From: Dermatophagoides farinae
Taxonomy: Eukaryota; Arthropoda; Arachnida; Sarcoptiformes; Pyroglyphidae
Direction: 5' to 3'
Length of the DNA: 64,000 bases
Assembly (NCBI RefSeq): GCF_024713945.1
Contig: NW_027461517.1
Location: 124,001 to 188,000, forward strand
Shown in pieces: positions 3,796-57,688 of the stretch (its first letter is position 1; the number at the start of each line of letters is the position of its first letter). The position numbers were made by a program, and so were the translations under genes. Under the pieces are notes generated by a model. The model searched no databases, had not been told where the DNA came from, and worked only from the letters and a program-made list of their open reading frames with translations.

Positions 3796-4407
3796 ATGTT
3801 TTTTTCAATGTTCAAAGACTTGTTTGATTCTATCGTGTACATTTACAAAAAACCAAAAAGAGTAAGTAGCGCTAAAATATGGGAACTAATTTTTAGTTTT
3901 TAATGAACCTGATTAGCTCAGCATTTTCTTATTCTTTCGTGCTGGCTTTGTTCAGTGTCGCTATTTACTATACAAGATGTGAAACTCCTGTTGTGGTAGT
4001 GCTCAGCGGGTCTATGGAGCCAGGAATTTACCGAGGAGACATATTATTGTTGAAAAAAATTGACGCCTTTAATACTGGACAGATCGTTGTCTACCGAGAA
4101 AATGTAAAATCAATTCCAATAGTCCACCGGGTCGTTCAAGTGCACGAAGATGACGAGTCGACATGGTTATTGACAAAAGGAGACGCTAATAACGTCAATG
4201 ACAGAAGTTTGTATGTAGAATCCCCTGTATGGCTAAATTCAGAACACATCATGGGGAGCGCTTATGCAATAATTCCAAAACTCGGATTACCGACTATTTG
4301 GATTAACGAAGTGCCATTGTAAGTTACACGTTAAAAAAATCATTAGACTTAAACCCATTATAATCGGGGTGACGATTATCGGAATGATGACAGGCCGAGA
4401 TATTTAA
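3796..4407 (+). CDS. SEC11: Signal peptidase complex catalytic subunit SEC11 (3 exons)
   Basis: The ER signal peptidase serine protease, 182 residues after splicing. Exons are 3796-3861, 3897-4318 and 4347-4407; the introns are 35 bp (3862-3896) and 28 bp (4319-4346), both GTAAGT...AG. Exon 1 supplies the short cytosolic N-terminus, exon 2 the membrane anchor and catalytic core, and exon 3 the C-terminal hydrophobic helix ending MTGRDI. The Ser-His-Asp triad is visible: Ser61 in LSGSMEPG, His99 in IVHRVV and Asp124 in NDRSLY, as expected for the eukaryotic enzyme. Without the introns the protein would lack both ends. It lies divergent to centrin and 113 bp before eIF6. Confidence 0.95.
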
Positions 4408-4520
4408 AATTCTCAGTATTGTTTTTTATTATAATTATAATATTATTCTTTGCAATATATTATTGAATATATAACGTTTCGAAAACACTTAGTTTATCTT
4501 AGTAGAAAGTACGAAACAAA

Positions 4521-5241
4521 ATGGCCATCAGTACGTTTGAAAGTTTTTTTACCATTTTTTCTAGAATTAAAGCATCAGTCATCCTCGGAAATTGGAGTTT
4601 TCGCGTGCCTCACCAACACTTACTGTTTAGTAGCTGACAGTAACAACGAAAATTTTTATTTGGCGCTTGACTCCGAGCTTGGATCGCGCATTCCCGTCGT
4701 TAAAACTACTATTGGTGGATCGACCACTGTTGGTTCTTGTTGTGTAGGAAACAGAAAAGGGCTTCTTGTGTCCAACTCAACTACTGAATATGAATTAATG
4801 AATATTCGTAATGCATTGCCAGACGATATCAAAATTCAAAGAGTGGAGGAACGTTTAAACGCCCTCGGAAACGTTATAGCTGTCAATGATTACGTTGCGT
4901 TCTGCCACATGGATATCGACAAAGAAACCGAACAAATAATTGAAGACGTTTTAGATGTCGAAGTTTATCGAACAACCGTTAACAATGAAGTTTTGGTCGG
5001 CCAGTATATGGTTTTCAACAACCTTGGGGGAGTTGTTCACTCAGATTGTCAAACAGCTGAAATCGATTTTCTAAGCGAAATCTGTAAAATACCGTTGGCT
5101 CCTTCAACTATCAACAAAGGTTCAATAAATCTTGCGGCTGGAATACTGTTGAACGATTACGCGTGTTTTGTCGGCCACGATTCTACTCAAGTTGAAATTA
5201 AACTGCTGGAACGAGTATGCAAAATCAAGCCAAACCTGTAA
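4521..5241 (+). CDS. EIF6: Translation initiation factor 6 (eIF6, 2 exons)
   Basis: An anti-association factor that binds uL14 on pre-60S subunits and is released by SBDS/EFL1. Exon 1 is only 10 nt (4521-4530, ATG GCC ATC A), followed by a 34-bp intron (4531-4564, GTACGT...CTAG) and exon 2 to 5241, giving 228 residues. Splicing restores an N-terminus of exactly the family length (17 residues through SSEIGVFA). Conserved blocks follow: LTNTYCLVA, GNRKGLL, RRVEERLNALGN-like and AAGILLND. The C-terminus is about 17 residues shorter than usual; an extra short 3' exon is possible but not supported by a good donor. An open frame from a TTG at 4450 runs through the intron and is not real. Confidence 0.95.
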
Positions 5242-5465
5242 CTCCCCGCGATGCTGCGTTGTGAAAAAAACTAAGCAGGATTTCAATAAAAATGTCTTAT
5301 ACGAACTTTCTATCGATCTGAATCTCGGGTCAAAAAATGCGAAATATCCAACGTCTAAACTTTAAATCTTGTTTAGACAAAAAATTTTTTTTTGATTTTT
5401 AAAATAATCTCAAGCTAGTAAAATATTTTGCATTAATGTTATATCTTTTTATAACTTTTCCTTAA

Positions 5466-6104: not shown

Positions 6105-6107
6105 AAC

Positions 6108-6827
6108 TCACTCGCCGAAATACTCGTTCACTGCGGCCATGAAATTGCAGTAGTTCTTTTGCAAAAGCGCTATGGCCACGGAACGCTCGATTCCTAGATC
6201 TACGAGCGAGTTTATCTATAGTTGGTTTAGAGCTTATTAACTTACGTCTTTTTTAGGATCGTATATTTCTTCTTGAGCATATTTTTTAACCCATTCTTGC
6301 GCAGTTTCTTTGAACTGGTCGTAGTTGGTGATGTACTGCTGAGCTACTTCCGCGTCTTGAGGATTGTCAGGCTCAATAGATTCCAGCAAAGCCATTATGG
6401 ACAGTAGCATTGTCCGTATCGACAGTGCTGGAGACCATTCTGACTTTAAAACATCTAAGCAAATAGCTCCAGTCTTAGATGATATGTTAGGGTGCCAAAT
6501 TTTTGTTATGAACTTAACCTAATGAAGTTTGCGATTAAACTGCACTTACTAAAGGAGGGCTGAATGGATACAGTTCGTCTATTATTATGGCTAAATGAAA
6601 AATTCCACCTTCATATTCCGTGCCTGTCGGACCTCTGATAGTGCCGATCCAGTAGGAAAGATTGTTATCGAAGAGTTTGGCGTCTAGTTTTACATTGTCT
6701 TCGTGTAGCTGGTTGTTATTGAAATTAGCTAGTTCCTGTGAAACAAATAACACCTTGTATTTATACTTACTTTTGTTAAACGCTGGAAAGCTCGACTGTT
6801 CGAATTTATTTTGGACAAATCAGGCAT
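6108..6827 (-). CDS. UBE2K: Ubiquitin-conjugating enzyme E2 of UBE2K/UBC1 type with UBA domain (4 exons)
   Basis: Exons on the minus strand are 6827-6771, 6735-6550, 6518-6246 and 6215-6108; introns are 35 bp (6736-6770), 31 bp (6519-6549) and 30 bp (6216-6245). The product is 207 residues, close to human UBE2K. The UBC fold spans about residues 15-165, with HPN at 90-92 and the catalytic Cys101 in GAICLD. Exon 4 encodes a UBA domain ([16 protein letters not shown]...), which marks the K48-chain-forming UBE2K/UBC1 class. If intron 3 were retained the protein would stop just before the UBA domain, so its splicing decides the domain content. It is divergent from the aspartic protease and end-to-end with NAF1. 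Confidence 0.95.
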
Positions 6828-7040
6828 AATATTATTATATTTGTTTTTCGACCACTTAGCAAAAAATAAATGAATTGATTTTTGCCAAAATATTTTCCAA
6901 ATCCATTAATCTTTTCTTGTGATTTGATTAGTGCACAAATTGAAACACCGCGATTTTTATCGTTAATTTTACACATAAAGTTATTATTAATATTATATAT
7001 CCATGGTTGCTTAAGAATCAAAATAAACAATACTCAGAGC

Positions 7041-9209
7041 ATGAAACTAATTAAATTGTTACTGAGCACTGCATTATGTATTACAAACGTAGATAAAACC
7101 GTTCGATTTTATGAATTTCAGTCCAATATTCTGCAAAACGACGTGCCTCCGTTGCCAATTGTGATGTATGTTTACGGGTCTATTTTCGAAACAGCGTATT
7201 ATTTTGTTGATCTCTATGTAGGGGCTCCTAAAGTACAAACTAAATCGATGATCGTCGACACAGGTTCTAGCACACAAGGATTTACCTGTGACACGTGTAA
7301 AAAATGTAGCAACAGCCATTGGGAAAAACCGTTCAACACGGAAACGTCTCACTTCTTATTTCCAGAGCCCTGTAAAGATTGCTCCATGTGTCATTTGAAC
7401 CTTGACCCCATCGCGTTAACAAACGCTGTCGAAATTGCTAAAGACTACAAAATTGGTTCGAATGAATTTTATTCGAAAATCGGCGACATTGTGAAAAACA
7501 ATCCAGACCTCATGCAATGTTTTTACGATGTACAGTATGCTGAAGGTAGCAGAATTTCTGGAGTTTACTATAATGATGTTGTTTGGTTAAACACAAATGA
7601 AGGAGACTGGATGGATAAGTTAGATGCACACGAGAAAAAACTATGCCCACACTACCCACTGCGCCAAGGGCCTCCACTTGGGCTGTTGACCAAAATTGGA
7701 TGCCACACCAAAGAAACGCATTTGTTCCGCGAACAAAAAGCATCAGGAATCCTAGGAATGGAGTTTTGGACTTCCAACGGGACAAAGTCATTCCCAACGC
7801 TTGTGTTGTCATCGATGAAAGAACTCTATGAATCATACAGCAACTACATAGTCAGTGATTATTGTTCGGAAAAAGTTAACAGCACGGAATTTTCTTTCAT
7901 GTTCAGCTTGTGTTTGTCGCCTAAAGGAGGGTTGCTCAGTATCGGTGGAAATCAACCGCATTTGCAGCCTCCAGAGTCTTATACTGTGAAGCTACCTTTG
8001 TTGGACTACCCAAAAGGATATCATTCTTACACTGTTGGATTAGAAAGTATAGAAATAACTAATTTAGGTAAATTAGCTCCTACCCTGTACTCTACAGTAT
8101 ATTTCAATACCCTAAGATCCAAACGCAACTGGTCTCCCATCCAGCTTCGTCCCAACGCCCATGTTATCGACTCAAACAAAAATGGAGCAAGACGAAAACC
8201 CATCGTACCTGTTCTTTTTGACAGTGGAACTACTTTATCTTACTTCTTTCCAAGGCTATTTAGAGACATACTTCAATCGATAGAATTGAGAGTCGGCTAC
8301 AACGCACGAAATCGCATGCGTTCACTGTCGTCTTCAAATAAAGGAAACACCGCAACACACAAACCGGAGAAAGTATTTTCTACTGATGAGGGGCCAGCGA
8401 TAATTCGAGAAAAGTTTTTGAGCCGCAAAGAGAAAAAGGATAATAGAATACAATATATTCCAATTCAAAACGAATTGCTTACAGAAACGCCTAAAAGATT
8501 GGTGAAGCTGTCGTCAATTCCACTCGAGATCAAATCTCGACAATTAAAACAAACCATTTATTCACACCTCAGCAGAATAGCAAGTGAAAACGGACGAGAG
8601 TTACATGAAGGTGACTCTAGTTGGTACGCCGTAATTGAGCCTAGATATACTGAAGATTCAAACGGTGAAAAAATTCTTGAAGCCGTTGAAAACAAAAATT
8701 CAGAAAATGAGAAGCAAGAAACTGAAAATAACTCCAACGAAATTTTGATAGGTTTTGTCGACATTCCGAAAAGCATGGAAGGCGCGCCTCCTCGTGTGCT
8801 CGTCACCAAAGTAGAATCGTATAGCAATGGTGAATGTTGGTGGTTGCAAAATAAAGCTAAAGACCTGGAGTTGTTTCCAATGCTGCGATTTAAATTTTTC
8901 GGAAGCAATTCGTACGTAGGCTGGCACCCGATGTCATATTTGTACAAAAGCAATGACGACCACTTTTGGTGTTTCGGAGTCATGACAGATTTGTTCAGCG
9001 AAGATATTGAAAACTCGTACGACAACGAAACTATATTCGGATCCAACGCTTTTATTTATAAAGAAATTGGTTTTCACATTGAATCGGACGACTTTACAAC
9101 TCTTTCAGGCGACTATGAAGGCGCAGACGATCTGAATTACTACGTAAACGAAAATGCGTGGTTGAGCATTACGGATTCCATGTGTAAAGAAATAGATTTT
9201 GATAAATAA
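7041..9209 (+). CDS. Large pepsin-family aspartic protease, plasmepsin V/ASP5-like
   Basis: A 722-residue A1-family protease. The chosen ATG opens on a hydrophobic leader (MKLIKLLLSTALCITN) that looks like a signal peptide; a longer frame from TTG at 6882 is not used. The first catalytic motif is DTGSST at Asp73, the second DSGTT at Asp394, and a TIFGS...IGF segment near residue 670 matches the end of the pepsin fold. Directly after the first Asp comes a cysteine-rich insert (CDTCKKC...CKDCSMC), as in plasmepsin V, Toxoplasma ASP5 and related protist enzymes. A charged insert of about 150 residues follows the second motif. No C-terminal membrane span is seen. The enzyme should act in the secretory pathway. 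Confidence 0.85.
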   Translation: MKLIKLLLSTALCITNVDKTVRFYEFQSNILQNDVPPLPIVMYVYGSIFETAYYFVDLYVGAPKVQTKSMIVDTGSSTQGFTCDTCKKCSNSHWEKPFNTETSHFLFPEPCKDCSMCHLNLDPIALTNAVEIAKDYKIGSNEFYSKIGDIVKNNPDLMQCFYDVQYAEGSRISGVYYNDVVWLNTNEGDWMDKLDAHEKKLCPHYPLRQGPPLGLLTKIGCHTKETHLFREQKASGILGMEFWTSNGTKSFPTLVLSSMKELYESYSNYIVSDYCSEKVNSTEFSFMFSLCLSPKGGLLSIGGNQPHLQPPESYTVKLPLLDYPKGYHSYTVGLESIEITNLGKLAPTLYSTVYFNTLRSKRNWSPIQLRPNAHVIDSNKNGARRKPIVPVLFDSGTTLSYFFPRLFRDILQSIELRVGYNARNRMRSLSSSNKGNTATHKPEKVFSTDEGPAIIREKFLSRKEKKDNRIQYIPIQNELLTETPKRLVKLSSIPLEIKSRQLKQTIYSHLSRIASENGRELHEGDSSWYAVIEPRYTEDSNGEKILEAVENKNSENEKQETENNSNEILIGFVDIPKSMEGAPPRVLVTKVESYSNGECWWLQNKAKDLELFPMLRFKFFGSNSYVGWHPMSYLYKSNDDHFWCFGVMTDLFSEDIENSYDNETIFGSNAFIYKEIGFHIESDDFTTLSGDYEGADDLNYYVNENAWLSITDSMCKEIDFDK

Positions 9210-9348
9210 AGAAAACCAATGATGGAGCCAAAATTTTGGCTTTGAGTTTTAACAGTTACCCGCTGTAATTATTGTAGTATTTTTTGTTTTTTATTTTATA
9301 ATAAATTCTCCGTTCAGTTATCTTCTTTCTAAATATGCATCAGCAACA

Positions 9349-9723: not shown

Positions 9724-9748
9724 AACAATAATTATTGGGGATGTTCGT

Positions 9749-10197
9749 TTATCCCATCATCTTTGACTCGTTATCTGGCACATGATGCCTGTATTTTGCA
9801 ACGCCACGGTCGTATACGGCTTTTAATTCTTCTTTATTGAAATACCGCAACTCCCCTTCTAATTTCTTTCTTGAATCGATAAACTCTGTAAATATCGTCG
9901 ATTTACTTTGATAGTTTGCGTCTTCAGCGAGCTTTTCCAAGTTAATTGACTGAAAGTTTTCGTTGTAGTGCTTCTGTACAAGATTTGCTGTCAATTTTAA
10001 AGCTTCAGAAGTGATTTTCGAAAATAATTTAGGTTCACTCGCGTTATCTTTACTATACGATGCAAAAATTTTTTTGGCTAAAAATAATATTAAAGTCGGT
10101 ATTTTGGTAAATAAGACTTACTGGTTTCATTCAGTTCAGTCAAATCTGTTGCATCAAAAAAATAAGACCCTAAATATGAGTAATCGTCATTTTTCAT
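9749..10197 (-). CDS. Unknown 134-residue protein (2 exons)
   Basis: Exon 1 is 10197-10122 and exon 2 10077-9749, joined over a 44-bp intron (10078-10121, GTAAGT...TTTTTAG), the longest found here. The joined frame stays open from MKNDDYSYLG to the TAA after SKMMG, and both exon sizes add to a multiple of three. The protein is polar and mostly helical, with a charged C-terminal half (Lys, Glu, Arg). It has no recognisable domain. Its 3' end lies 25 bp from the convergent 124-residue gene. Confidence 0.7.
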
Positions 10198-11811: not shown

Positions 11812-11815
11812 CCTG

Positions 11816-19219: not shown

Positions 19220-20941
19220 TTAACCCTTCAAAACGCCTACGGGAGCGAATTTAACGCACTTCAAACTGATTTTCGATCTTTCACAGACGTTGACCACGTC
19301 ATCAATGTCTTTGTAGCACTCTGGAGCTTCTTCAACCGCGGCAGCTTCGTTGCCTATTTTCAATATAATGTTCTTTTTTCGCAGATCAGAGAGCAAGTCA
19401 TCTTTCTTAATGATCGACTTTGCTTTGGAGCGAGACATGGCGCGTCCGGCTCCGTGGCACGTGCTACAAAAGCTAGTGTTGAGGCCTTCACGAGTTCCTA
19501 AAAGCAGATAACTAGCCGTCCCCATGCTTCCGCCGACTAAAGCAGGCTGTCCAATTTTCTTGTATTCATCGCACAGCTCAGCGGCCCCCGGAGGCAAACA
19601 GCGTGTCGCGCCTTTTCTATGAATCAAAAGTGTTTTCTTTCCGTCTGAAGTGTCTAACTGATCAACCGACACCAAATTATGTGAAACATCGTAAACAAGA
19701 CTCATATCCAGCTCTTGAGGCGTTTTTTCAAAAACCTGTTCAAAGGTCTTTCGGATTTCGTGCGTTATAAGTGCTCGGTTGACCCAAGCAAAATTGGCAC
19801 AAGCAGACATTGAATCAATGTAGAGCTTCCCAAGAGGGCTGTTGGCTGGGCAACAAGCTAGTTGGGGGTCGGTGCAGTAGTAACCAAGCCTCTGCAAATC
19901 TTTTTTCAGCAGTTTGTTGTGGGACTTCTCCTCCGACTTTCTAAGTCTGACGAAACTATTTGCAGATTGCTTTTGCCGGATGGTCTTGCAGTTGAAACGC
20001 CTGATTTTTTTTTTCTTGCTGCGATCCTTAACAAACCTGCCATACTTGTTTTTGTTCTTCGCCTTTAATTCTTCCTTTACTTTTTCAATTTGCTTAATCG
20101 TTTTGTCCACAAAATCTGAACAGATTTTATGTCCGAGGCCTCTAGAGCCGGTGTGTAACATGATCACTAGCTGGCCTGGAGCTGTTATTCCAAACTTCTT
20201 GGCGCTCGCCACATCAAAAATTTTCTCGACTTGCTGCATTTCTAAATAATGATTGCCGGACCCTAAAGTCCCGAGCTGCTTAGTACCTCGCTTCAATATT
20301 TCCTCACTGAAAGCTTCTAAAGAACTAACATTTATTTTTCCTTTACGCTCACAAAAAGCAACGTCTTCTTTCCACGCGTAATTGTTGTCAACTGCCCAGT
20401 CCAAACCAAGTCGTAATATGTCTCTAATGTTATCTACCTTGAATTTATTTTTTTTATTTTTTTCCAAACCCGTTGGAATACACTTGAACAACGTATCAAA
20501 AAGGCTTGGAAGCTTATCTTTCACAGCATTGTAAAATAAATTTGTGCGAATCAATCTCACACCACAATTGATGTCGAACCCAATACCACCAGGAGAAATA
20601 ATCGCATTTGGTTTAGACATATCAAACGCAGCAACACTTCCTATACAAAAACCGTAGCCGCAGTGCACATCTGGCAGTAGTACCGGGTATTTGTATAATC
20701 CAGGAAGCTGTGAAACATTGGCTGCTTGTAGTAAAGCAGGACAAAAATTTTTTTTATGCACAGACTGTGCAATCTCATTTATTAAATCATGCAGTTGCTG
20801 TTCGTTGACAACAGCGTAAAACGAACAAGTTGGAATACCATTCCTAACTACGGAAATTTTAAAAAAACAATCTTTTTCCTGCACCCATTTCAGGATGATT
20901 GTCTTTTTTTTAATCCAGAGCTTTTTAAAGTCTGATGTCAT
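19220..20941 (-). CDS. RTCB: RtcB/HSPC117 RNA-splicing ligase with basic insert
   Basis: The ligase joins 2',3'-cyclic phosphate and 5'-OH ends, as in tRNA exon joining and XBP1/HAC1-type mRNA splicing. The ATG at 20941 gives 573 residues; the frame also extends 7 codons to a GTG that is not needed. All core motifs are present: SPGGIGFDINCG (metal Cys), GSGNHY, HTGSRGLGH, YDVSHN, HRKGATR, GGSMGT, the guanylylated His at about 496 in TCHGAGR, and the terminal VGVLKG. Human RTCB has 505 residues; the excess is a Lys/Arg-rich insert at about residues 282-352 between the HTGSRGLGH helix and the YYCTDPQLAC segment. It could be a nuclear localisation or RNA-binding element. Confidence 0.95.
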   Translation of the reverse strand: MTSDFKKLWIKKKTIILKWVQEKDCFFKISVVRNGIPTCSFYAVVNEQQLHDLINEIAQSVHKKNFCPALLQAANVSQLPGLYKYPVLLPDVHCGYGFCIGSVAAFDMSKPNAIISPGGIGFDINCGVRLIRTNLFYNAVKDKLPSLFDTLFKCIPTGLEKNKKNKFKVDNIRDILRLGLDWAVDNNYAWKEDVAFCERKGKINVSSLEAFSEEILKRGTKQLGTLGSGNHYLEMQQVEKIFDVASAKKFGITAPGQLVIMLHTGSRGLGHKICSDFVDKTIKQIEKVKEELKAKNKNKYGRFVKDRSKKKKIRRFNCKTIRQKQSANSFVRLRKSEEKSHNKLLKKDLQRLGYYCTDPQLACCPANSPLGKLYIDSMSACANFAWVNRALITHEIRKTFEQVFEKTPQELDMSLVYDVSHNLVSVDQLDTSDGKKTLLIHRKGATRCLPPGAAELCDEYKKIGQPALVGGSMGTASYLLLGTREGLNTSFCSTCHGAGRAMSRSKAKSIIKKDDLLSDLRKKNIILKIGNEAAAVEEAPECYKDIDDVVNVCERSKISLKCVKFAPVGVLKG

Positions 20942-21663: not shown

Positions 21664-22367
21664 CTAATATGAGTCGTCTAATTCACACTGGGAAATTAGT
21701 TCGAGTAGCCGATTAGTCATGGCGTGGCAGTACAGCCAATGCGGAGACCCGGGAGAATAGTTCCTAAATCCAGCGAGCGAAAACTGGTACAAAAGACGAA
21801 TAGGCTCTGTGCTGGAGTTATAAGTTCCCATTTCTAAATTACTGTAAAAATGTATTAGTTTTAAACACTTACACAAGCACTCGTTTAGGGCTGACAATAT
21901 TGCAATAGGGCTGTGCTGTGGAAAGTAATTCGCGCTGTTTCTTTGCTGCATTACTGTTCCGCGTTATAGGATGGTAAAAAACACTTGCATTAGACTCCCC
22001 GTACTCAATGGGCTAAAATTGAAATTTTATCTGAACTTACATCGTTTATGTGTTTTAGTTCCTCGAACAATCCTTTGCCAACGGGACTCGAAAACAAACT
22101 ACGAAGTACATTTTGCAGTCTCACGTTCCAGTTCGGATGTTTAATACTCCCTTTGCTGTCGCTTTTACTACCGAAATCTAAATTTAAGATATAATGGTTC
22201 AATAAAGGCACCACTTGCCAGGCGTTACGTGAAATACACTAAAAAATATAAATACAGGCCACACATACGTTATTTATAGCTTCCGCTTCTGCCGGAAGCA
22301 ATTTTAAAACCCCTGAAATACTGTTTTCCGTTACTCCTGTTGCAACCAGGTCGTTTAACTCAGGCAT
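21664..22367 (-). CDS. Unknown 204-residue protein (4 exons)
   Basis: Exons are 22367-22269, 22238-22041, 22012-21873 and 21841-21664, with introns of 30 bp (22239-22268, GTATGT), 28 bp (22013-22040, GTAAGT) and 31 bp (21842-21872, GTAAGT, with ACTAAT before the acceptor). Each intron contains stop codons or shifts the frame, yet the spliced frame is open over 205 codons, which is strong evidence for the model. The protein (MPELNDLVATGV... to CELDDSY) is helical with a His/Trp/Tyr-containing C-terminal part; no domain is recognised. It shares a 187-bp divergent promoter with BOP1. Confidence 0.7.
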
Positions 22368-24773: not shown

Positions 24774-25232
24774 ATGAAGGTAAAAGAATATTATAAATCG
24801 AAATATAAAGGAAAAAAAGGAAAAGGTACGTGTGATAAAATATAAAAATTACTTGCAGAAAAACTACTTAAGTATCAAAAGTCGAAAAAAGAGCAAGAAA
24901 GAAAGTCGAAACATGTAAGCAAATTAGAAAGCTTTGGCGAAATAAACTTGGATTCTGATCAACTGTTACTGCAGTACGACAAAAAACTAAATGAGTCTTT
25001 GAAATCAAAAAACGAAACTGTTCCTGTAGTCGAAAAAATCTCCAGAACGCCCAAAATAATAACTAAAACTAAAACTAAACCCGAATCTGGCCTTGAAACG
25101 AGTTCTAAAACTAATGAAGTAAAAACAGAAAAATCAAAAAAAAAATTCAATATTTACAAGCATAAAACAAGTCGTGGCCAACTCAAAATAAGCTGTATGA
25201 GCAAACAGTTGCTTCGCGAACTTAAAAACTAA
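24774..25232 (+). CDS. Small basic protein (2 exons), possibly nucleolar
   Basis: Exon 1 is 24774-24825, the intron 33 bp (24826-24858, GTACGT...TGCAG), exon 2 24859-25232; the product is 141 residues. It opens MKVKEYYKSKYKGKKGK and is dominated by Lys with scattered Ser/Thr/Glu, ending SCMSKQLLRELKN. Such composition is common in nucleolar and ribosome-assembly accessory proteins, but no family motif is certain; a distant similarity to SLX9-like proteins was considered and not supported. It follows BOP1 by 77 bp in the same direction. Without the exon 1 model there is no ATG for the frame. Confidence 0.65.
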
Positions 25233-25449: not shown

Positions 25450-26647
25450 TTATTTTAAATATTCATTGATAAAACTCAGTGATTTTTTCGTTTTTTGTGC
25501 CGGTTTGGAAGCAGGTTCGCTTTCTTTATTATTGGGCTCTACAGATTCTGCAGAATTAGCGTTTTCGCTAACACGGTTTTGATTTTGGTTGCTTTGGTTA
25601 TTACTGTCTGTTTTGGTGACAGTAGGGCTCTGAGTTTCGCCAGACGGTTTAATGTGTTGGCTTTCAGCGTGATTTTTAGCATTGTTGTAGTTTTGGTGGG
25701 CGTGTTCGTATCTGCCAAGCTGGTCTTTAACACTCGAATAATGTTTAAACTGCCACTGCTCCATCGTTTCTTTGTCGAAAATTTTGGACAAGGTAATTTT
25801 GAACTCTTCCATAGACAAGCAGTAGTACGCAATGTTGCTGCGTTTTGCAAAAAGTTCGCTACGGCGCCAGAACTCAATTTTACAGGTGTTGCAGGCAGCG
25901 TAGTTTGAAAATTCGAGCGAGACAGCAGTGTAATTTCTCGGGTCATCAAGCAAACCTGACATAAACGCAAGCAACACTTTTCGATAAACATCCATGCAGT
26001 TGTCTGCCGATACATTAAACATGTAAAATCTGTCACCGCTGGTGAACAGAAATGCATTTCGCAACGGAAGTTTGTCTTTGCGATAGCAAAACAACGACAC
26101 CAATGATTTGTCGTTTTTGTGGTCAATCGACTGCAGATTTTTCACAAGGTCAGAACAGGACGAGATCGTTGCTATCAACGTAGGCCCTGGTTTGTACAAA
26201 ATATTGGGAGTTTTAAGAGCCACCAACGGAATTTTATCGAATTTATGCAACACGAACTGGTTTTCGAAAAATATATCATTCCTTGTCTTAATTATCGAAA
26301 GATTCGAAGTCTTTTTGCTCGGATCGGGGTTTCCACTATACGTGGCACTATGATATTGGTGATTTCCATAATTTTTACTGATGTATTTGCCAGAGTTTCG
26401 CGATTTATTTAATTTATAATTTGATTGGTTTTTTGAACTTTTGTAATTTTCATTTGACTTGCTAATATTTGGTACAGGTACAATTTTGTCTTTTCTTTTC
26501 TGTTGTCTATCTAACAGTCTTTTCTTTATTTCGTCTAAGTCTTCAAAATCATCTTCAGAATCACTCTAGAAATAATAAAATTGGGCAACTTACAATATCA
26601 TTCCATGAACACTTCTTGTTATCAGTAATGTTACTTGCTACTGACAT
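25450..26647 (-). CDS. Possible divergent eIF4E-like protein (2 exons)
   Basis: Exon 1 26647-26594 and exon 2 26565-25450 flank a 28-bp intron (26566-26593, GTAAGT...CTAG), giving 389 residues. The N-terminal ~120 residues are disordered and Lys/Ser/Asn-rich and the C-terminal ~90 are N/Q/S/E-rich. The central domain (about 125-295) has a spacing reminiscent of eIF4E: SGDRFYMFNV, then a long helix DVYRKVLLAFMSGLLDD, then the strand KIEFWRRSE, which resembles the GGRW / WLETLL-IGE / KI-xx-WT series. The two cap-stacking tryptophans are not evident, so cap binding is doubtful. The gene model is secure; the family call is tentative. Confidence 0.6.
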
Positions 26648-32207: not shown

Positions 32208-32550
32208 TTACATATTGTTCAGTTTGCGTGTCTTGTTGCTAACTGCGATTACTTCGCTTTTGTCTGCTTCAGCTTCAAATAGTTCGAGCAACGCAGCGAC
32301 CTTCGATTCTTCAAAAGTTATTAGCGCTCTTAAATAAACTGAGTGTTCAAACTTACATTTCGTCTGCTCTAAGCAAAATCATTTCGAGTTTTCGCACTGA
32401 CGAATCTTTTTTATACTCAGTCGTGTCTGTCAAAACTATGTTGGGCAACTGATCGTAACACTTAGGAAATCCAGAAAAAATCTCAAATTTGTTCGTCACT
32501 ATTACAACTTTTTCTGTCTCATTTAGGCAGGACAAAAATCGCTCATTCAT
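32208..32550 (-). CDS. LSM8: U6 snRNA-associated LSm8-type protein (2 exons)
   Basis: Exon 1 32550-32357 and exon 2 32328-32208 joined over a 28-bp intron (32329-32356, GTAAGT...TTAAG) give 104 residues, the usual LSm8 length. Sm motif 1 is seen as VVIVTNKFEIFSGFPKCYDQLPNIVL and Sm motif 2 as ILLRADEIALI, the latter split by the intron inside the Ile codon. LSm8 distinguishes the nuclear LSm2-8 ring on the U6 3' end; the GYDQ-NIVL pattern supports LSm8, though LSm1 is close. It shares a 132-bp divergent promoter with the 32683 gene. Retaining the intron would end the protein at ADEM. Confidence 0.85.
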
Positions 32551-39029: not shown

Positions 39030-40769
39030 ATGGACGGAATAAATACTAATTTGAGTCAGTATGAAATGCCTGAAGACGTACTGCATTCGTTTGCATCTAG
39101 ATTACCTAATCCTTGCCCAGGGAACTTGGTATTAAGATTCGCCCCTGAACCAAGTGGGTATTTACATTTAGGGCACATCAAAGCGATAATGTTAAACGAG
39201 TTTTTCATAAATTATTATGGTGGAAAACTTTTGTTAAGATTTGACGACACTAACCCAACATTAGAATCTTTTGAGTTTCAGTCGACCATCGAAGAAGACT
39301 TAGCGCTTTTGAAAGTAAATTTTTGCGGTCCAACTTTTAGTTCTGATTATCTACCGGAGCTTCAAGTCACTATAAAGGAGTTAATTTTAAAAAACTTGGC
39401 ATATGTTGACGACACAGACGCTGAAACAATTAAAAAGGAAAGATTAGCAAAGATAGAAAGTAAATGCAGAAACAATCCAGTGGAGAAGAATCTAAAACTT
39501 CTCGAGGAGATTTTTCAGGGAACTGAAATAGGCCAAACTTGTTGTGTGCGTGGAAAAATTGATATGCAGTCAGCAAATGGTTGCATGCGTGACCCAGTGT
39601 TTTGGAGATGCAACCTATACCCGCATCACAGACATGGCACAAAATACAAAAGCTGGCCAACTTATGATTTTTGCTGCCCTTTAATCGATTCCTGGAGCGG
39701 TGTTACTCACGCGTTGAGAGCAAACGAATATGCCGATCGAATTCCAATGTATCAATGGGTTCAGGATGTGCTAAATGTTCGTAAAGTTGAAATATTTGAG
39801 TTTAGTCGCTTAAACCTCACAAACACGGTATTAAGTAAGAGAAAATTAGCGAAACTAGTCCAGAACGAATTTGTTTCCGGGTGGGACGATCCTCGATTCC
39901 CTACTGTGCGTGGTTTAATTCGAAGAGGAATTCATCCAGACTCTTTAAGGAAATTCATGATTGAAATAGGACCTAGCAAGAACACCAATTTGATGGAATG
40001 GGATAAACTTTTGAGTATCAACTCAAAAACAATTGACAACTTAGCTAAGCGTTACAGCATTGTACAAAGTCCGTACGTAGTCATGAATATTTCCAACATT
40101 CCAGAAGAAAAACGTTCGCTTGTTCGTTCTCTCCATCCAAAAAATCCAGACTTTGGCCAGATTCACTATACTTTGTCAGATACTGTATTAGTTGATATGA
40201 ACGACGCACTAAATTTCGTCGAAGGTTTAGAAATAACTTTGCTCAACGCAGGTAACGCGATTGTTAAAGAAATTTTCAAGGACGATAACGGAACCATTAC
40301 TTTTGTCAACGCAGAAGCTAATTTATACGGAAATTTCAAAACTACAAAATTGAAACTCCATTGGGTATCCAAAACAGACAAGTTAATGCAAGGGGTTTTG
40401 CATGAATATGACCACTTAATAAACAAAACACAACCAAAGAAAAATGACGAGATTGAAGAAATCATCAACAAAAACAACCACATTCAAACCGATATTCTGA
40501 TCGAAGAATCATTTAGCAATGTTGCTCAGGGAGATTACATTCAGTTGCTTCGTGTTGGTTTCGCTAGAATAGATAAGATAGATGATTACTATCATTTAGT
40601 TTTAATTCCTAGTGGAAAAACTAGTTTGCAAAATGTCAAAACTAAAATTGATATGAATGTTTATACCAAAGGGTCTTCTGCTGACAAAGATACAACCAAA
40701 CTTTCTAAAAAAGCTCAAAAACGTGCCGAATGGAAAGCCAAGAAAGCTTTGGAAAACGGTATAAATTGA
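39030..40769 (+). CDS. Cytosolic glutamyl-tRNA synthetase (class Ic)
   Basis: A 579-residue class I synthetase that charges tRNA-Glu in the cytosol. The HIGH-type motif is HLGH at 46-49 in PSGYLHLGH and the KMSKS-type motif VLSKRKL at about 267-273. Blocks DDTNP, NPVEKNLKLLEEI, CVRGKIDMQSANGCMRDPVFWR, YPTYDF-like WPTYDFCCPL and DDPRFPTVRGL match eukaryotic/archaeal GluRS rather than GlnRS (R-x-KIDM-x-x-NG-x-MRDP). The GST-like N-terminal domain of many cytosolic GluRS enzymes is missing; a Lys-rich tail (KLSKKAQKRAEWKAKK) ends the protein. Downstream it is followed by SPO11 in the same direction. Confidence 0.95.
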   Translation: MDGINTNLSQYEMPEDVLHSFASRLPNPCPGNLVLRFAPEPSGYLHLGHIKAIMLNEFFINYYGGKLLLRFDDTNPTLESFEFQSTIEEDLALLKVNFCGPTFSSDYLPELQVTIKELILKNLAYVDDTDAETIKKERLAKIESKCRNNPVEKNLKLLEEIFQGTEIGQTCCVRGKIDMQSANGCMRDPVFWRCNLYPHHRHGTKYKSWPTYDFCCPLIDSWSGVTHALRANEYADRIPMYQWVQDVLNVRKVEIFEFSRLNLTNTVLSKRKLAKLVQNEFVSGWDDPRFPTVRGLIRRGIHPDSLRKFMIEIGPSKNTNLMEWDKLLSINSKTIDNLAKRYSIVQSPYVVMNISNIPEEKRSLVRSLHPKNPDFGQIHYTLSDTVLVDMNDALNFVEGLEITLLNAGNAIVKEIFKDDNGTITFVNAEANLYGNFKTTKLKLHWVSKTDKLMQGVLHEYDHLINKTQPKKNDEIEEIINKNNHIQTDILIEESFSNVAQGDYIQLLRVGFARIDKIDDYYHLVLIPSGKTSLQNVKTKIDMNVYTKGSSADKDTTKLSKKAQKRAEWKAKKALENGIN

Positions 40770-40891: not shown

Positions 40892-41927
40892 ATGTCTACT
40901 TCGCTTAAAATCCTTACGAAATTATGTAGTGACTATTTTGAAGATATCCTTAATGGTACTGTATTGTTAGAACAAGACAGTGAAACAATTCAAAGAAGTA
41001 TGTTTTACTTTGTGCATTAAATTGTAGAAATTGCTTTATATTCTGAGGTACATTCTATTTTAACAAACGATGAAACAGTTTCCTATCGTGGTGTTTATTA
41101 TAGACTAGTCAAATATTACATTTCGCAACGTCATTGTATAGCTGAGCTAAATAGTAAGTAAATATTCAAAACAATTTCGCAGAATTACTGGCTATACTAA
41201 ATTATAGCAACAATCTGCAGTATGGAATCATACCTGCTTCTAAGGGCATTATTTATAATTCACTGCTCAAAGAAAAAAATTTAACAATCGACTCGTTCAA
41301 TGATTTTAAACAACATGTTCATAGCAAATGTTTTGAAAATTTAATAATATTGGAAAAACACTGTAAGTTACTCAGCTTTCAAATTTTTTAGCCATAATGA
41401 ACTACATTATTTGCAATAATATTGTAAATTTCAGCAATGTAACATTTCTAACAGCAAGAGGTTTTCCAGATAGAACCACTCTGCAGATATTAAATGAAAT
41501 TTACGTTTTGAAACAAGATATAAATATTATATATGCAGGGGACCATGATCCATATGGATACTTAATCTACTTCCAATATTTAAAACATATAAACAAATAT
41601 CATATCCATCATTTACACGTGCTAACTATGCTGACAGAAGATAATTTAAAAGCAGCATTTGCTCATAGCGTACCAATGACAGAAAGAGACGTAAAAATCA
41701 TGTCCACTGTACGAAAACAATTCAGCGAATGTCAGTAAGTTTATGTTTGACCATCTTTTGTAGATCCAGTGCTGACAAATACTGTGAGAAGTTGTTAGAC
41801 ATATTAGAATTGACAAAACGGAAGTTCGAAGCAGAAGTAAGTTGCTTTTTCAAAAGAATACTTTTTTTAGGCATTGATAAATATTGCTTTCTTTTCTAAA
41901 AACTTAAATGCGTTACTTATTCAGTAA
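40892..41927 (+). CDS. SPO11: Meiotic recombination protein SPO11 / Top6A-like (6 exons)
   Basis: Six exons: 40892-40997, 41028-41153, 41183-41362, 41392-41734, 41764-41836 and 41871-41927; five introns of 30, 29, 29, 29 and 34 bp, all GTANGT...AG. The spliced frame of 294 residues is open and colinear with SPO11: catalytic Tyr60 in YRGVYYRLV, the KG pair in IIPASKGIIY, the Toprim Glu in LIILEKHS, GFPDRTT, and the Toprim DxD in AGDHDPYGY. SPO11 makes the programmed double-strand breaks of meiosis; a Top6A subunit of a protist Topo VI is the alternative, but the short N-terminus and single copy here cannot decide. Only exon 4 appears as a sizeable open frame. Confidence 0.9.
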
Positions 41928-45160: not shown

Positions 45161-45233
45161 CGGTTCCAAGAGGGATCGAACCTCTGACTTTGTGGTTAAC
45201 AGCCACACGCTCTACCTACTGAGCTATGGAACC
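45161..45233 (-). tRNA. tRNA-Asn (anticodon GTT), copy 1
   Basis: Reading the minus strand from 45233, acceptor GGTTCCA pairs with TGGAACC, the D arm is GCTC...GAGC, and the anticodon stem GTGGC/GCCAC-type arm carries loop CTGTTAA, anticodon GTT (Asn). The T arm GAGGTTCGATCCCTC is canonical, discriminator G. The 73-nt gene is identical to the copy at 45462-45534. Confidence 0.95.
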
Positions 45234-45461
45234 TAATTTAGATATGTTGTTTTGGTTCATATTTATAACTTGTCTCTGAAATATATTTTTATCGTTAGCT
45301 CGAAAAAACACACTAAATATACGGAATACAGGCAACTCGCCAATACACGTAGTCACATCAATCATTTAGTTCAAATGAACTCAAAAATATTAAGTTATAA
45401 TAATCATAAATCAAGTTTTTAAATAACTATAAAAATTACTCAAATAAAAAACAATTAAATC

Positions 45462-45534
45462 CGGTTCCAAGAGGGATCGAACCTCTGACTTTGTGGTTAA
45501 CAGCCACACGCTCTACCTACTGAGCTATGGAACC
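45462..45534 (-). tRNA. tRNA-Asn (anticodon GTT), copy 2
   Basis: Sequence-identical to the tRNA-Asn at 45161-45233, in the same orientation, 228 bp away; the identity stops within a few bases of the tRNA ends, so this is an old or concerted tandem duplication rather than a fresh one. Anticodon loop CTGTTAA, anticodon GTT. Confidence 0.95.
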
Positions 45535-45593
45535 TTAAAAATATCATTTGTACGCTTTCTGGCAGTAGCAACTAAGTTTTTGTGTTATAAAAA

Positions 45594-45666
45594 TGCCGTG
45601 ACCGTGGATCGAACACGGGACTTTAAGATCTTCAGTCTTACGCTCTCCCAACTGAGCTATCACGGC
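45594..45666 (-). tRNA. tRNA-Phe (anticodon GAA)
   Basis: On the minus strand the acceptor GCCGTGA pairs with TCACGGC, discriminator A. The anticodon arm AAGA-CTGAAGA-TCTT gives anticodon GAA (Phe), and the T arm GTGTTCGATCCAC is canonical. It is intronless and lies 60 bp from the second tRNA-Asn in the same orientation. Confidence 0.95.
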
Positions 45667-45723: not shown

Positions 45724-48416
45724 TTATCTTTTATGCAACAATTTACCGGGCAACGCTTTTTTTTTCAGAAAAACGTGCGATTTTTTATAAGACGAAATCT
45801 CATGCTGTTCTTCTTCTTCAAGAGAATCTAGTTCTCGTTTTAGCATCTGATAATAAGAAACTATCTGACTGTTTGCTTTCCAGTGCGTATTAATTTTTAC
45901 TTCTATTTGTGAACAGTAACTGGAACTTGCTAATTCTCTAAGGTTGCGGCTATCGTTACAAAGCTGCTCAAGCAGCTTTATGGCGCTAGTTACAAGTTCT
46001 TCAGATGGCGATTTGCATATATAATAAATTAAATTGGGTCGGATGTGCTTGGCGATTCGAACCAAAAGTCGTTTGTCGATATTCACAAAACGGTAAAACA
46101 CTTCAATCAAGATAATCAAAAATCTCGTATCACCCGTGACCTCGATAATATCGAAAGTAGCGAGTATATGATCTAGCGGCGGAACTCTATTTGTGAAATA
46201 GCTCCAACATTCGGGAATGTCAACGAACTGAGAGAGCAAGTCAGACGTGATTACTAAGAGTTCTATTGATTTTTCCTGCAGCCTGAGCAAAATAATTTGA
46301 AGTATATCTAATAGAATGGGGATCAAATTAAATTTAAAAAACTTCAACTTCCATATAGGTTTTTTAACGAGTATTGAAACAAACTCCAACATTAATTTTT
46401 TTGACTCAAGAGTTAGCGCCTCCCACTTGGCTAACAAGCGTACGAGCAAACTGCACAGTTTAGAATCAAACATAGTTTTTTCAGTCAGTAGTTTTGTAAT
46501 CGTCAAAAACCTTTCGATCATTTCTCGATTAATGGAGAAATTTTGCAAAATAGATTCAGTATGCTCCGAAACCAAATTCAAAATGATTCTAATCGTGGTT
46601 GGGTCCACATGATTGAGATGTATTTCTTTTATTATTTTATCGTATATATTAATGACTTCTGTTTTAGATGACGAAACACTTTTCAAATAAGCATGAAATA
46701 TGTGCAAGCAGTCGCAGATTTCTAAGTCCTGAATGGGCTGTTCCGTTTTGTTTTCCAAGGCGCACGCTTTTTCTAATTTGTTTATAATTTTCAAAACACG
46801 AACTGAATCCAAAACGGTCAAAATTCTAGCATCATACGTATAATTTTGGTTTACAAGTCGATTGGACAACAATAAATCGTACAGCGAGATGTTTAGTTCT
46901 ATCGGTTTTCGTAGATCTACTGGCCGCCAATGTAAAACAAAGCAGATTAATTTCAAAACGTGCGCTTTCATGAGTAAGTTATCATCGTTATCTGCAAAAA
47001 TTAGCAATTCTTCAAATATTTTCAACCCACTGGGCAAGCAAAGCGCCTCCATAGCCGTTATAAACATGCTTGCAATCAAAGCCACGCGTTTATGCAACAT
47101 TTCATCGACTTGTCGCAGTAAGCTAAGTTTACTTATGTCGGTAATTTCGTTCAAAATGGATTTTGGATGTGTAATGTAGAAATCAAATAGGTTAGTGATT
47201 TTTACTACTATGTCGACGCTTTCAAGATTCATTTTTATCATCTCCATGACCTGTGTTTCTGGTAGAGTCCTATTCGACAGAACTGATATGACGTAGTTGT
47301 CTATTATTTGCGTTTTTGTCTGGTTGAAGTAGTCATAAATCAACAGCCTATAATAGTAAAGTATAATTTTCTGAATTTCCGACGTGCGATTATGCCAGAT
47401 AGATAGATTTACAACCGTGTTTGGATCGTAGTAAAAGTTGTTCAAATAAGCTTCTGATACTACGTTATAATCCGCGAGTATGTTTTGCGGGCAGCCAGTG
47501 GTATTGTAAATGAAAGTCAAATCGCTGATGTATATTCCAAGTTTTTCATCATCATTTCGATACGACGATAGTGGAACACTCATAACGTAAATTAAAAACG
47601 ACCTCTCGTTGTACAAAGGCTCGAAGTATTCTCTGACTGCGTCAATGATAAAAATATAAAAATCAGTACATACGCAGACCACATATTTGGCTCGCCAAGC
47701 GCCTGAATCCATAAAATGATTGTACAGCTTCGCGTAACAACTCGTCTCTATGATTTGCAGATTGTCATAGTTAGTTTGCAGTTTATTCATGACCGTTTTT
47801 CGGTGTTCGTCTTCAGTGATGACGTCTGAGCTGTTAAAATACAACCATAGCAAAGCTCCATCAGTTCCGTTATACTGTGTACAAGAAGCAGGCTGCAAAA
47901 TATAGTTTATTTTGAGATAATTAGTGGGAATTTGGAAAAAATAGCCTTCAAAAAAGTCGGTTCGTGTGTTTTTACGAATGTTCAGGTCAAAACATAATTT
48001 GTATTTTTTATAGTTTGTTTCAAATTCCAACGGCAACTGAGTACTGATAAAGTTCTCGCACAAATAGTAAGCAGCGTAAACGTTCCTCAGCTCATTTAAA
48101 AATTTATAACCCCTACAAAGTTTGTATTCCCATTCTTCCGTTGCGTTTATACGAATCAAAGAGTATCCATAATTGACGGCTACGATACTTATTATAAATT
48201 TGAAGTCTACTGAACGCTTATTAATTAGGCTAAAACATTTTACACACACACACACACTTACAATGATGCGTCTCGATTGAGAAATTCGATTGAGCACGCT
48301 GTTATAAGAATCCAATACGTATTTTCAGGACTGCTAGGCTCAAAACACAAATCGAAAAAAAAAACTTTTTTATAAATAATCTGAGATAGAACTGCCAATA
48401 TAGCTTCACTCTTCAT
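45724..48416 (-). CDS. Large helical (ARM/HEAT-like) protein, 2 exons
   Basis: Exon 1 48416-48262 and exon 2 48229-45724 flank a 32-bp intron (48230-48261) whose interior is a GT microsatellite. Spliced product: 886 residues starting MKSEAILAVLSQIIYKK. An alternative frame that reads the intron as VSVCVCVK from an ATG at 48315 loses about 34 residues and is rejected. The N-terminal ~300 residues are mixed alpha/beta with several Tyr/Trp; the rest is helical repeat. VPPLDHILATF near the C-terminus faintly resembles DNAJC13/RME-8, but no J domain exists. Exon 1 overlaps the last 11 bp of the upstream dihydrouridine synthase gene. Confidence 0.75.
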
Positions 48417-53022: not shown

Positions 53023-53150
53023 CGTAAAGATTTAGATAGTAGAGATAGCGGCGCCCGTATAAAGTTGGGGAATAAAACTTTTTTTCAAGATATTATAAAA
53101 AAAATAATAAAATCTTTATTACTCAGAAGCAAACAGATCGAAGCAAAACC

Positions 53151-54148: not shown

Positions 54149-54156
54149 TGGTTGTT

Positions 54157-55215: not shown

Positions 55216-55289
55216 ACGAAGATTATTTGTAAAATTCCTTGGCCGCTTATATTAGTGATCTAGATATCAGTTTATGACATAAACAGTTG

Positions 55290-55505
55290 ATGGTGCGTTT
55301 AGATTTTTCACAAAATTATGTACAATTGAAAATTATAACAAAAGTAAACGGGGGATTACAGCCAGTTCCTCTGGTTTTTATTTATTTATATTTTACCGTT
55401 TTTTTATATGAGCAAATTTTCAATTATTTGTGGTTCAGGATCGTCTTAAAAAACATTTCAACCAGCCAAAAAGTTATCTCTAGTAAATTGCGCAACTATG
55501 TATAA
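55290..55505 (+). CDS. Possible small membrane protein (71 aa)
   Basis: ATG at 55290, 71 residues, with one strong hydrophobic segment (VPLVFIYLYFTVFLYEQIFNYLWF, about 28-50) flanked by a polar N-terminus and a basic C-terminus (SQKVISSKLRNYV). It is divergent from the tail-anchored protein gene and precedes the phosphatase by 70 bp. Small single-span proteins of this size occur in ER complexes, but no family is recognised, so the coding status is uncertain. Confidence 0.4.
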   Translation: MVRLDFSQNYVQLKIITKVNGGLQPVPLVFIYLYFTVFLYEQIFNYLWFRIVLKNISTSQKVISSKLRNYV

Positions 55506-55575
55506 ACAACTCATGTTATAATTCGTAAAACAAGGACCGGAACGAAAAACATTATTTGGAGTTGACGTAATTAAT

Positions 55576-56813
55576 ATGGTATTAAATTTAGCTACTTCTC
55601 TTATAATTTCGAACATCTTGGTGTCAACATTGTTCACTGCTAAAAAAGACACTGAACTACTCGACCAATTTGAACTATTACACCTTAAATGTCAGAAATT
55701 TGATGATTCATACATTTTAGAGGAACTTTTTTACAGTCTTTGCGGGGCTTACACGCGCATCAAAGAGTATATCGGGGCCAACGGAAACGCCGCGGTGAAG
55801 TTTGTGTTTTGCATAGTTCAATGGCTGTTGAACCTCGTTTTAACATGCTGCTTCAAGATGGTGATGATATCCATGTGTTTGCTGACGCTTATGTTTTTTT
55901 CGGAAATGCGGAAATTCCAACAACGCCAAGAGCGCTTCAAGCAAAAAGTCTATTCTGCGCAAGCTGCTGCGAAGCAGGATGACTCAGTAAACCAAACGCA
56001 ATATGAAATCATTTTTGTTCGCCACGGCTCTAGTGTTTGGAACAGATTGTTCCCGAGTCACGCACCCAAGTTTTCTTTGATTGGAAGCTTAATTAAGACC
56101 ATTGTGATCGAACTCATGTTGATCACGTCGTTGCAAAGCACAATATTCGACACCCCTTTGTCCGACGAAGGCGTAATACAGGCGTATGGCATAAAACCAA
56201 TTTTAAACCAAATAATAAAATCTAAGGTCGAAAACAATTCTGAAGCCCATCCAGTTCATGTATTGAGCAGCAATTTGAACAGAGCTATCGACACTGCGCT
56301 AATTGCGTTTCACAACAACGAATATGTCTCTGAAATACGCGTGTTCACAGCACTGCAGGAAATCACTCGCAACCCAGATGCTGTCAGCTACGCATTCATG
56401 CGGCGAAGCCAATCGCTATTTTTGTCGCCCAAGTTTACTAACATCGAAAAGCTAAGTCATGATAGCCTCAAGTGGGATTATAGCTCTGGAAACAGAAAGT
56501 TTCATCGATCTGTGGTCAACAGATTTGAAGAAATAATTAACTATTGTAACAAACAACACAAAGACAACGGCGTTAACACTTTTATACTAGTTTGTCACTC
56601 GCGATTTATCAAGTTATTTTTGCGTTATTACATCACTGTAAGTTTATAAACAAAAAACAAGCTTAGGATTCACATATTTTGAAATGTACAAAGTCAATAT
56701 TATCTAATTGCGGAATTTTGGCTGCCAAAATTTCCAATATCACAGTTAAAAACTCAACAGTGAGTTTTATTAAGTCTGAATCGATTCAGTTGCTTAATGG
56801 CGAATTTGAGTGA
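55576..56813 (+). CDS. Membrane-anchored histidine phosphatase (2 exons)
   Basis: Exon 1 55576-56637, 29-bp intron (56638-56666, GTAAGT...TTAG), exon 2 56667-56813; 402 residues. A hydrophobic stretch near residues 77-112 (FVFCIVQWLLNLVLTC... to LMFF) anchors the protein. The phosphoglycerate-mutase fold follows: RHG at 149-151 with the phosphorylated His150 in FVRHGSS, a conserved Arg in SSNLNRAIDTA, a Glu in ALQEITRNPD and the second His near 341 in LVCHSRF. The substrate is unknown; PGAM5-like and lipid phosphatases are possibilities. Exon 2 overlaps the convergent TPR gene by 28 bp of coding sequence. Confidence 0.85.
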
Positions 56814-57688
56814 GTCTCTTGCTCGATTAATTGGCAAATGCTTTTTAGCCATAGACATAGTTTTTTGTTAGATGATGGCTGCGCCACAGTTTGCTGCACG
56901 TTGTTCTTGATAACGTGCAAGATATCTTGGTTAGACTTAGCTTCGTCGTAAAATTCTTCATCGACTTCGGAGTCTTCCGTTTCTTCAACCTCAACTTCTA
57001 CGTCGACTTTAGATTTTATATTTGCCATGCATTTCGAGTACAATAAGCAAGCATGTAGGTTTGTCGGATCGATTTCAAGTGCGAATAGAACGTATCTCAA
57101 TGCGTTATCGAAATCGTTCATAGTGAAGTACAAATCAGCCAACTTTAAGAGCAAAAAAACGTTTTGGCCACTGGTCAGACATACGTTGTTTTCTAAATAT
57201 GCCAATGCGTTCAGATAATCACTTCGCAAAAGGTAATACACATACAACTCGTTATTTAAGAATAAATTGTCTGGGTATTCTTCATGCAATGCTTTCAACG
57301 CGTCTAAATACACGTCTGGTGTGTCTGCTTTAATTTGATTAAGTTTCGACAGCGCTAAAAAAAAATGTTTATCGCTCTCTCTGAAAAATACGTTCACGTC
57401 TTTTTTCGCCACTGTCGCAAACTTAACATCATTGCCAAATGAACGCATCGTAAGCCCTTTAAGGATATCTTTGGGGAAAGATAAGTCGTACAATTTTGTC
57501 ATACATTTCTGAAACTCTTTTTTTTGAGAAAACACAGCGTTGCTATAAAGAAGTTTGGTCAAAAAATTTTTGTTCTTTATTTTATTGATTGACTTGTTAT
57601 AGTTCTGTGTGTCAGAATAATTAAAACTAAAAAAGTTAACGTTACAGATAACGTACTAAGACCACTGACCTATATAGTTTGTCGCCAT
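56786..57688 (-). CDS. EMC2: TPR protein resembling ER membrane complex subunit EMC2 (2 exons)
   Basis: Exon 1 57688-57657 and exon 2 57626-56786 flank a 30-bp intron (57627-57656, GTACGT...TTTAG); 290 residues, the size of EMC2. TPR-like pairs lie at about 125-225: ALKALHEEYPDNLFLNNELYVYYLL, DYLNALAYLENNV, LADLYFTMNDFDNALRYVLFALEIDPTN. This follows the EMC2 pattern (WHELAELYI...YAKAAFCLEELM, KYFAQALKL). An acidic loop of Glu/Asp/Val (about 238-258) and a basic C-terminus follow. EMC2 is the cytosolic TPR subunit of the membrane insertase EMC; other TPR adaptors remain possible. The frame from TTG at 57562 lacks its true 5' exon. Confidence 0.65.

Follow-up and report, generated by a model that had tools for sequence, protein, structure and literature searches.

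The window analysed here is the whole stretch of 64,000 nucleotides (nt) at C14:124001-188000, within an animal genome assembly of 62.4 Mb in 22 contigs, and it contains 21 segments of about 30 nt that interrupt 12 protein-coding genes. We consider it very probable that the window belongs to the nuclear DNA of an apicomplexan parasite whose genome was assembled along with that of a small animal, probably the host, and that the 21 segments are U2-type spliceosomal introns. A first-pass annotation of this DNA had described a uniform class of ultrashort spliceosomal introns, a description that is upheld on sequence grounds; it did not notice that the window comes from a second organism, and not from the animal that forms most of the assembly. 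Introns of this size are already known in Apicomplexa, and the window's set would add another lineage.

Ultrashort introns of the window

All 21 introns proposed in the first-pass annotation were reproduced in place and length. When the 97 GTANGT sites on both strands of the window were scanned, 21 of them, followed to a downstream AG, gave the proposed lengths of 28–44 base pairs (bp), and each of the 12 spliced models runs from ATG to a single stop under the standard genetic code. Intron length is a multiple of three in five cases, and leaves a remainder of one in eight and of two in eight. Many of the segments had been said to shift the frame or to hold stops, and this is borne out: retention of a single intron brings a premature end of the frame for 20 of the 21, and only the last SPO11 intron, when retained, leads to a different end at about equal length, while an in-frame stop lies within 15 of the 21, including all five whose length is a multiple of three. 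The donors are GTAAGT (16), GTACGT (3) and GTATGT (2), with no GTAGGT, and the acceptors TAG (16), CAG (4) and AAG (1). The introns are as follows.

3862..3896, + strand, SEC11-like signal peptidase gene, intron 1, 35 bp, GTAAGT..TAG
4319..4346, + strand, SEC11-like gene, intron 2, 28 bp
4531..4564, + strand, eIF6 intron, 34 bp, preceded by only 10 coding bases
6216..6245, - strand, UBE2K-like gene, intron 3, 30 bp
6519..6549, - strand, UBE2K-like gene, intron 2, 31 bp
6736..6770, - strand, UBE2K-like gene, intron 1, 35 bp
10078..10121, - strand, intron of a gene for 134 amino acids (aa), 44 bp
21842..21872, - strand, 204-aa gene, intron 3, 31 bp
22013..22040, - strand, 204-aa gene, intron 2, 28 bp
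22239..22268, - strand, 204-aa gene, intron 1, 30 bp
24826..24858, + strand, 141-aa gene, intron, 33 bp
26566..26593, - strand, 389-aa gene, intron, 28 bp
32329..32356, - strand, LSm gene, intron, 28 bp
40998..41027, + strand, SPO11 intron 1, 30 bp
41154..41182, + strand, SPO11 intron 2, 29 bp
41363..41391, + strand, SPO11 intron 3, 29 bp
41735..41763, + strand, SPO11 intron 4, 29 bp
41837..41870, + strand, SPO11 intron 5, 34 bp; retention leaves the protein not shortened
48230..48261, - strand, 886-aa gene, intron, 32 bp
56638..56666, + strand, histidine-phosphatase gene, intron, 29 bp
57627..57656, - strand, TPR-like gene, intron, 30 bp

Five recognisable proteins (SEC11-like, eIF6, UBE2K, LSm and SPO11) hold 12 of the 21 introns, and eight of these 12 junctions fall inside the matched domain or alignment: one in eIF6, three in UBE2K, one in LSm and three in SPO11. 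Profile scores are 218 bits for eIF6, 144 bits for UBE2K (UQ_con), 47.7 bits for the Toprim domain of SPO11, 43.8 bits for LSM, and 26.3 and 25.2 bits for signal peptidase. Despite its ten-base coding first exon, spliced eIF6 aligns from residue 1 with the eIF6 of PDB entry 6lqm, presumably the human protein. The proposal that splicing restores conserved proteins stands for eIF6, UBE2K, LSm and SPO11, while both junctions of SEC11 lie outside its matched stretch, and the naming of the LSm protein as LSm8, as against another LSm, was not confirmed.

A mechanical rule was applied in which the acceptor is the first AG from 25 nt onwards, ten or more open codons stand on each side, and the frame is broken if unspliced. 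It was passed by 21 of 96 GTANGT sites as against 428 of 7,045 other GT sites (6.1%; Fisher p = 3.5e-7), and p was below 3e-4 under all nine rule settings tried. The 21 passing sites comprise 15 proposed introns and six others, the latter (6 of 75) passing at a rate near the 6.1% background; the six proposed introns that fail are five in multi-intron genes and that of eIF6, for its tiny first exon. In a looser, earlier count, which left the first-AG rule out, 17 of 97 GTANGT sites and 413 of 7,054 other GT sites passed. Under the same frame-join rule no other donor class has an excess comparable to that of GTANGT, and a few introns with other donors may be present. The donor was itself used in choosing the introns, hence the claim that all donors are GTANGT is true of the 21 observed and agrees with the enrichment of this donor at frame joins, but is partly built into the selection. 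A motif-free Viterbi gene finder recovered one of the 21 exactly and was too noisy for intron calls; both it and a motif-free coding-gain scan were dropped as intron callers, having merged neighbouring genes.

Some of the 21 might instead be chance GT..AG joins, frameshifts or errors of assembly, which we regard as unlikely. Given the background pass rate of other GT sites, chance could account for one or a few of the nine introns that lie in genes other than those of the five recognised proteins; the position of both SEC11 junctions beyond the matched domain, and a CCT-family gene on C20 with a frame offset that is no intron, point the same way. Against this, the other 12 introns lie in recognised proteins, eight of them within matched stretches, and length, T-tract and donor are uniform over all genes.

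Two further introns of the same form were spotted by eye outside the window, one of 31 bp on C21 and one of 32 bp on C14, and a check of the frames showed the first joining 137 open codons to 43 and the second 50 to 258; the 4.3 kb adjoining the window yielded no further callable intron. The anatomy was counted over these two and the 21 of the window. Lengths of the 23 introns range from 28 to 44 bp with a median of 30, and 15 lie at 28–31 bp. Donors are GTAAGT in 17, GTACGT in four and GTATGT in two, the last six differing by one mismatch at +4, and acceptors are TAG in 18, CAG in four and AAG in one. The earlier remark that acceptors are AG, mostly after Ts, agrees with these counts: GT..AG boundaries are found in 23 of 23, and T occupies 79 of the 115 positions from -4 to -8, as against a mean of 50.0 in shuffles. 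In every case the acceptor is the first AG from 25 nt onwards. An A stands at -11, nine bases before the AG, in 16 of 23 introns, a count reached anywhere from -4 to -19 in 0.4% of shuffles; A is found at -8 in nine introns and at -6 in none. ACTAAT, which had been pointed out near the acceptor, occurs in only two of the 23, with ACTAA and CTAAY no more frequent than in shuffles, and as a branch motif it was rejected for want of statistical support.

A probable second organism in the animal assembly

Contigs C1-C10 sum to 58.8 Mb and C11-C21 to 3,593,788 bp, and it is to the latter group that the window belongs. The CCT family is represented in both: nine of 26 matching rows correspond to eight genes on C11-C21 (one on C14, three on C16, two on C17, one on C20 in two rows, and one on C21), and the others lie on C2-C10. 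Seven of the eight match as one unbroken frame, the eighth being the frame-offset gene on C20, and two match weakly (267 and 170 bits), so that their status as CCT subunits is that of candidates. The halves of the C20 gene lie in different frames at a T run (L079, C20:130351-130480). The window has a guanine plus cytosine (GC) content of 35.6%, compared with 26.5–32.0% in 20 stretches of 10 kb from C1-C4 (L011-L030), and in those stretches frames of at least 150 aa number from zero to seven each. A tetranucleotide classifier, which assigned 87 of 88 pieces of the window and 272 of 280 from C1-C4 correctly, grouped 700-bp samples of C11 (two), C12, C13 and C15 with the window; it misplaced two of 11 three-kb loci of C1-C10 (L009 and L031), and gave mixed results for 150-bp contig ends. 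One such end, C18:1-150 (L054), is masked (N), and another, C11:1-150 (L047), has noisy repeats of CCTAA, a unit that differs from the CCCTAAA seen on C14 and C16. The sampled pieces of C11 are nevertheless parasite-like, and a misjoin with a host telomere is possible there.

It is conceivable that the introns are those of the C1-C10 animal and that this animal has two intron classes. In favour are the presence of all contigs in a single assembly, the confinement of the U2 and U6 genes found to C3, C6 and C10, and the fact that some animal CCT genes, too, match as one unbroken frame (on C4, C6 and two on C2). We nevertheless hold this to be highly improbable, since a second CCT-family set, a second Prp8, which is on C14 itself, and AP2 domains only on C11-C21 all speak against it, as do the classifier and GC content, which set the window apart from C1-C4, and the four animal CCT genes that are split by gaps of 7–179 bp. 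The animal itself is represented by five copies of small-subunit ribosomal RNA (SSU rRNA) on C1, C4, C5 and C8, found with a microsporidian SSU model (five of 1,737 candidates scored), which we take to be arthropod and perhaps of a mite. That animal assemblies can contain apicomplexan contigs is a recognised difficulty; PMC5244568 reports it for 51 of 920 assemblies. Annotation of the present assembly as that of the animal would bring the genes of large parasite contigs into its gene set, and this is a warning of contamination.

The assignment of the second organism rests on best matches in PDB and on AP2 domains, and Apicomplexa is its best reading, with a gregarine or another lineage within the phylum both compatible. 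All four AP2 matches lie on C11, C14, C16 and C19, three of them over the cut-off, and the domain on C19 matches AP2IX-6, which we assume to be a Toxoplasma name. UBE2K matches 2pwq best (187.4 bits, as against 168.8 for a human-named UBE2K), an entry we believe to be a Plasmodium protein, as presumably are 4l0w and 2h01, the two best matches of the peroxiredoxin. Centrin and RtcB have best matches that are uninformative on lineage. Short CCCTAAA repeats stand at the starts of C14 and C16. The two genes of the window not listed above that bear on the assignment are these.

124..744, + strand, peroxiredoxin; best PDB matches 4l0w (187.0 bits) and 2h01 (186.6 bits), next 181.6 bits, a small margin
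39030..40769, + strand, GluRS-like gene; best PDB match 7wai (489.8 bits), next 448.8 bits

Entry 7wai is identified in PMC12677556 as the GluRS of Plasmodium falciparum.

A less probable source, to which we give little weight, is a non-apicomplexan protist, alveolate or otherwise, whose introns are of the same style (a ciliate, a perkinsid or a dinoflagellate relative). Neither AP2 domains nor plasmepsin-V-like proteases are strictly confined to Apicomplexa, and four AP2 matches are few for that phylum. Introns of about 25 bp are reported in Paramecium and Nyctotherus (PMC5014332). On the other side, the best matches of GluRS, UBE2K, peroxiredoxin and AP2 are, partly on our own assumption of the source, Plasmodium or Toxoplasma proteins, the standard genetic code gives 12 intact frames of 12, and the contigs are small and gene-dense and lie inside an animal assembly. 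Two other origins were considered and set aside. That of a dicyemid, an idea drawn from the short introns and small genome, was made needless by the AP2 and CCT results and gained nothing from a single literature search; a microsporidian origin was rejected on uS11, which scores 188.6 bits with 6zu5, presumably microsporidian, as against 234.7 bits for its best match.

Further features of the presumed apicomplexan contigs were noted in passing. An aspartyl protease with a Cys-rich insert and a TAXi_N match (window 7041-9209, + strand) resembles plasmepsin V, and a Cys-rich repeat protein on C21 (L007:3-593, - strand), which is without a match in a Pfam search, has what we take to be a likeness to apicomplexan oocyst wall proteins. 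The RtcB RNA ligase at window 19220-20941 (- strand) carries an insertion rich in basic residues, as judged by eye, and its phmmer match falls into two stretches. Two tRNA-Asn genes, both scoring 73.6 bits in Rfam, form a cluster with a tRNA-Phe gene at window 45161-45666 (- strand).

Proposed splicing and the spliceosome genes

The 21 segments would be ordinary U2-type introns shrunk to about 30 nt. The donor, read as GUAAGU, is complementary to the 5' end of U1 (ACUUAC) and would pair with it; both sequences are observed. The A found nine bases before the AG in 16 of 23 introns suggests a branch adenosine about nine nt upstream of it. If that A is the branch point, it stands at intron position 18–24 in 15 of the 16 introns, and at position 34 in the 44-nt one, so that the lariat loop would already be near its floor. 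As the sequences show, the acceptor is the first AG from about 25 nt onwards and follows the T-tract. Removal is presumably by the parasite's own spliceosome, given that its Prp8, Sm/LSm and U1 genes are present. Introns about half as long are reported in mikrocytids and Stentor, and we infer from this that introns of about 30 nt need no new spliceosome design.

Prp8 (PROCN) has two matches in the assembly, one on C7 and one at C14:94631-95839 within an open frame of 2,341 aa. LSM-domain matches occur in both contig groups, with 11 of 28 rows on C11, C12, C14, C16 and C21. Five U1 genes exceed the cut-off: four on C7, to our eye animal-like, and one on C18, which scores 72.8 bits (cut-off 69.5) and has the 5' end AAACUUACCUG. 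The four on C7 form two inverted pairs some 84–90 kb apart (C7:2790867-2880559). The first-pass annotation had proposed an examination of U1, U2 and U6, and this was rewarded as regards U1 alone, since neither U2 nor U6 was found on C11-C21 in searches of limited power.

Several results weigh against an apicomplexan source or against the intron calls. In the family searches U2 was confined to C6 (46 of 3,769 candidates scored) and U6 to C3 and C10 (48 of 7,910), leaving those of the second organism not found, and core-pattern searches for both gave nothing on C11-C21; the U2 pattern also missed three known U2 genes, and that search is hence of little power. The fold of the C18 U1 is not exceptional, 12 of 200 shuffles folding as well, and the stretch around it is borderline by tetranucleotide composition. 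The second organism's SSU rRNA was not found with the microsporidian model, on the candidates scored as above. The matches of eIF6 and uS11 do not favour Apicomplexa, and there are only the four AP2 matches. Finally, the coding-gain scan recovered two of the 21 introns exactly, amid many false joins.

Comparison with other short introns, and genome size

The introns had been ranked with the smallest known apart from those of nucleomorphs and some ciliates, which is too strong. Lengths of 16–17 nt are reported for mikrocytids, whose introns are highly conserved in sequence (PMC10245619), 15–16 nt for Stentor (PMC9505925), and 20 bp for Babesia microti, as cited in PMC9250747. The closest comparison is with Porospora cf. 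gigantea, for which the same source describes a class of 25–30 bp introns with a mode of 28 that makes up 71–72% of all introns, an A that is strongly conserved 6 bp before the acceptor, and genomes of 8.8–9.0 Mb with a GC content of 54%. Like Porospora as described there, the second organism is, on our reading, apicomplexan and gene-dense and has its own donor and acceptor consensus and a near length class, with its median of 30 and its concentration at 28–31 bp. The putative branch A differs: it peaks at -11, with fewer at -8 and none at -6, where Porospora has its conserved A at 6 bp. By the same account 28–29% of Porospora introns lie outside the small class, and longer introns were not properly searched for here. 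As far as their sequences indicate, the window's introns may work like the small class of Porospora, a likeness in kind that is not claimed as descent. The different place of the putative branch A makes the pair comparable for asking what fixes the lower limit of intron length.

Other likenesses are more partial. Babesia microti shares ultrashort introns in an apicomplexan with a small genome (6.1–6.5 Mb, PMC6381282), but its introns are shorter and its genome is larger than C11-C21 together. The mikrocytid and Stentor introns, on the accounts cited, share the narrow range of lengths and the small number per gene, but are about half as long and belong to unrelated lineages, the mikrocytid ones being also conserved in sequence. 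Paramecium and Nyctotherus resemble the window in intron length and in having in-frame stops in introns that are a multiple of three (here 5 of 5); however, both are ciliates, whereas the window's frames are intact under the standard code and its protein matches are apicomplexan.

By a hand count from frames and spliced models the window holds about 49 protein genes, which extrapolates, very roughly and if C11-C21 are one genome, to 2,700 genes in 3.59 Mb. Two same-strand neighbours overlap in their models by 11 bp (window 48406-48416; predicted start codon), a sign of compaction. From its eight CCT-family genes and Prp8, the set of contigs would seem fairly complete. Some gaps in it are suggested by the failure of weak searches to find U2, U6 and SSU rRNA, and by telomere-like repeats at three of the 21 contig ends that could be read, one of these three being of another type. 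Among the apicomplexan genomes that we found in the literature, the smallest is that of Babesia microti, at the size given above, and C11-C21 total little more than half of it; PMC4066756 gives 7.61 Mb and 3,726 genes for Babesia bovis, and PMC10210345 gives just under 9 Mb for the neogregarine Ophryocystis, there called the apicomplexan with the fewest genes.

We put forward, as a tentative suggestion that may well prove wrong, that C11-C21 are nearly all of an apicomplexan nuclear genome, with some 2,700 genes and 1,000–1,200 introns (both extrapolated), mostly of 28–35 nt, in which genes and introns have shrunk together towards the floor set by the spliceosome. If the set is complete, an apicomplexan genome of 3.6 Mb would be a real surprise, placing the minimum of the phylum well below 6.1–6.5 Mb, and, if true, such an organism would offer a natural minimal gene set for a parasite.

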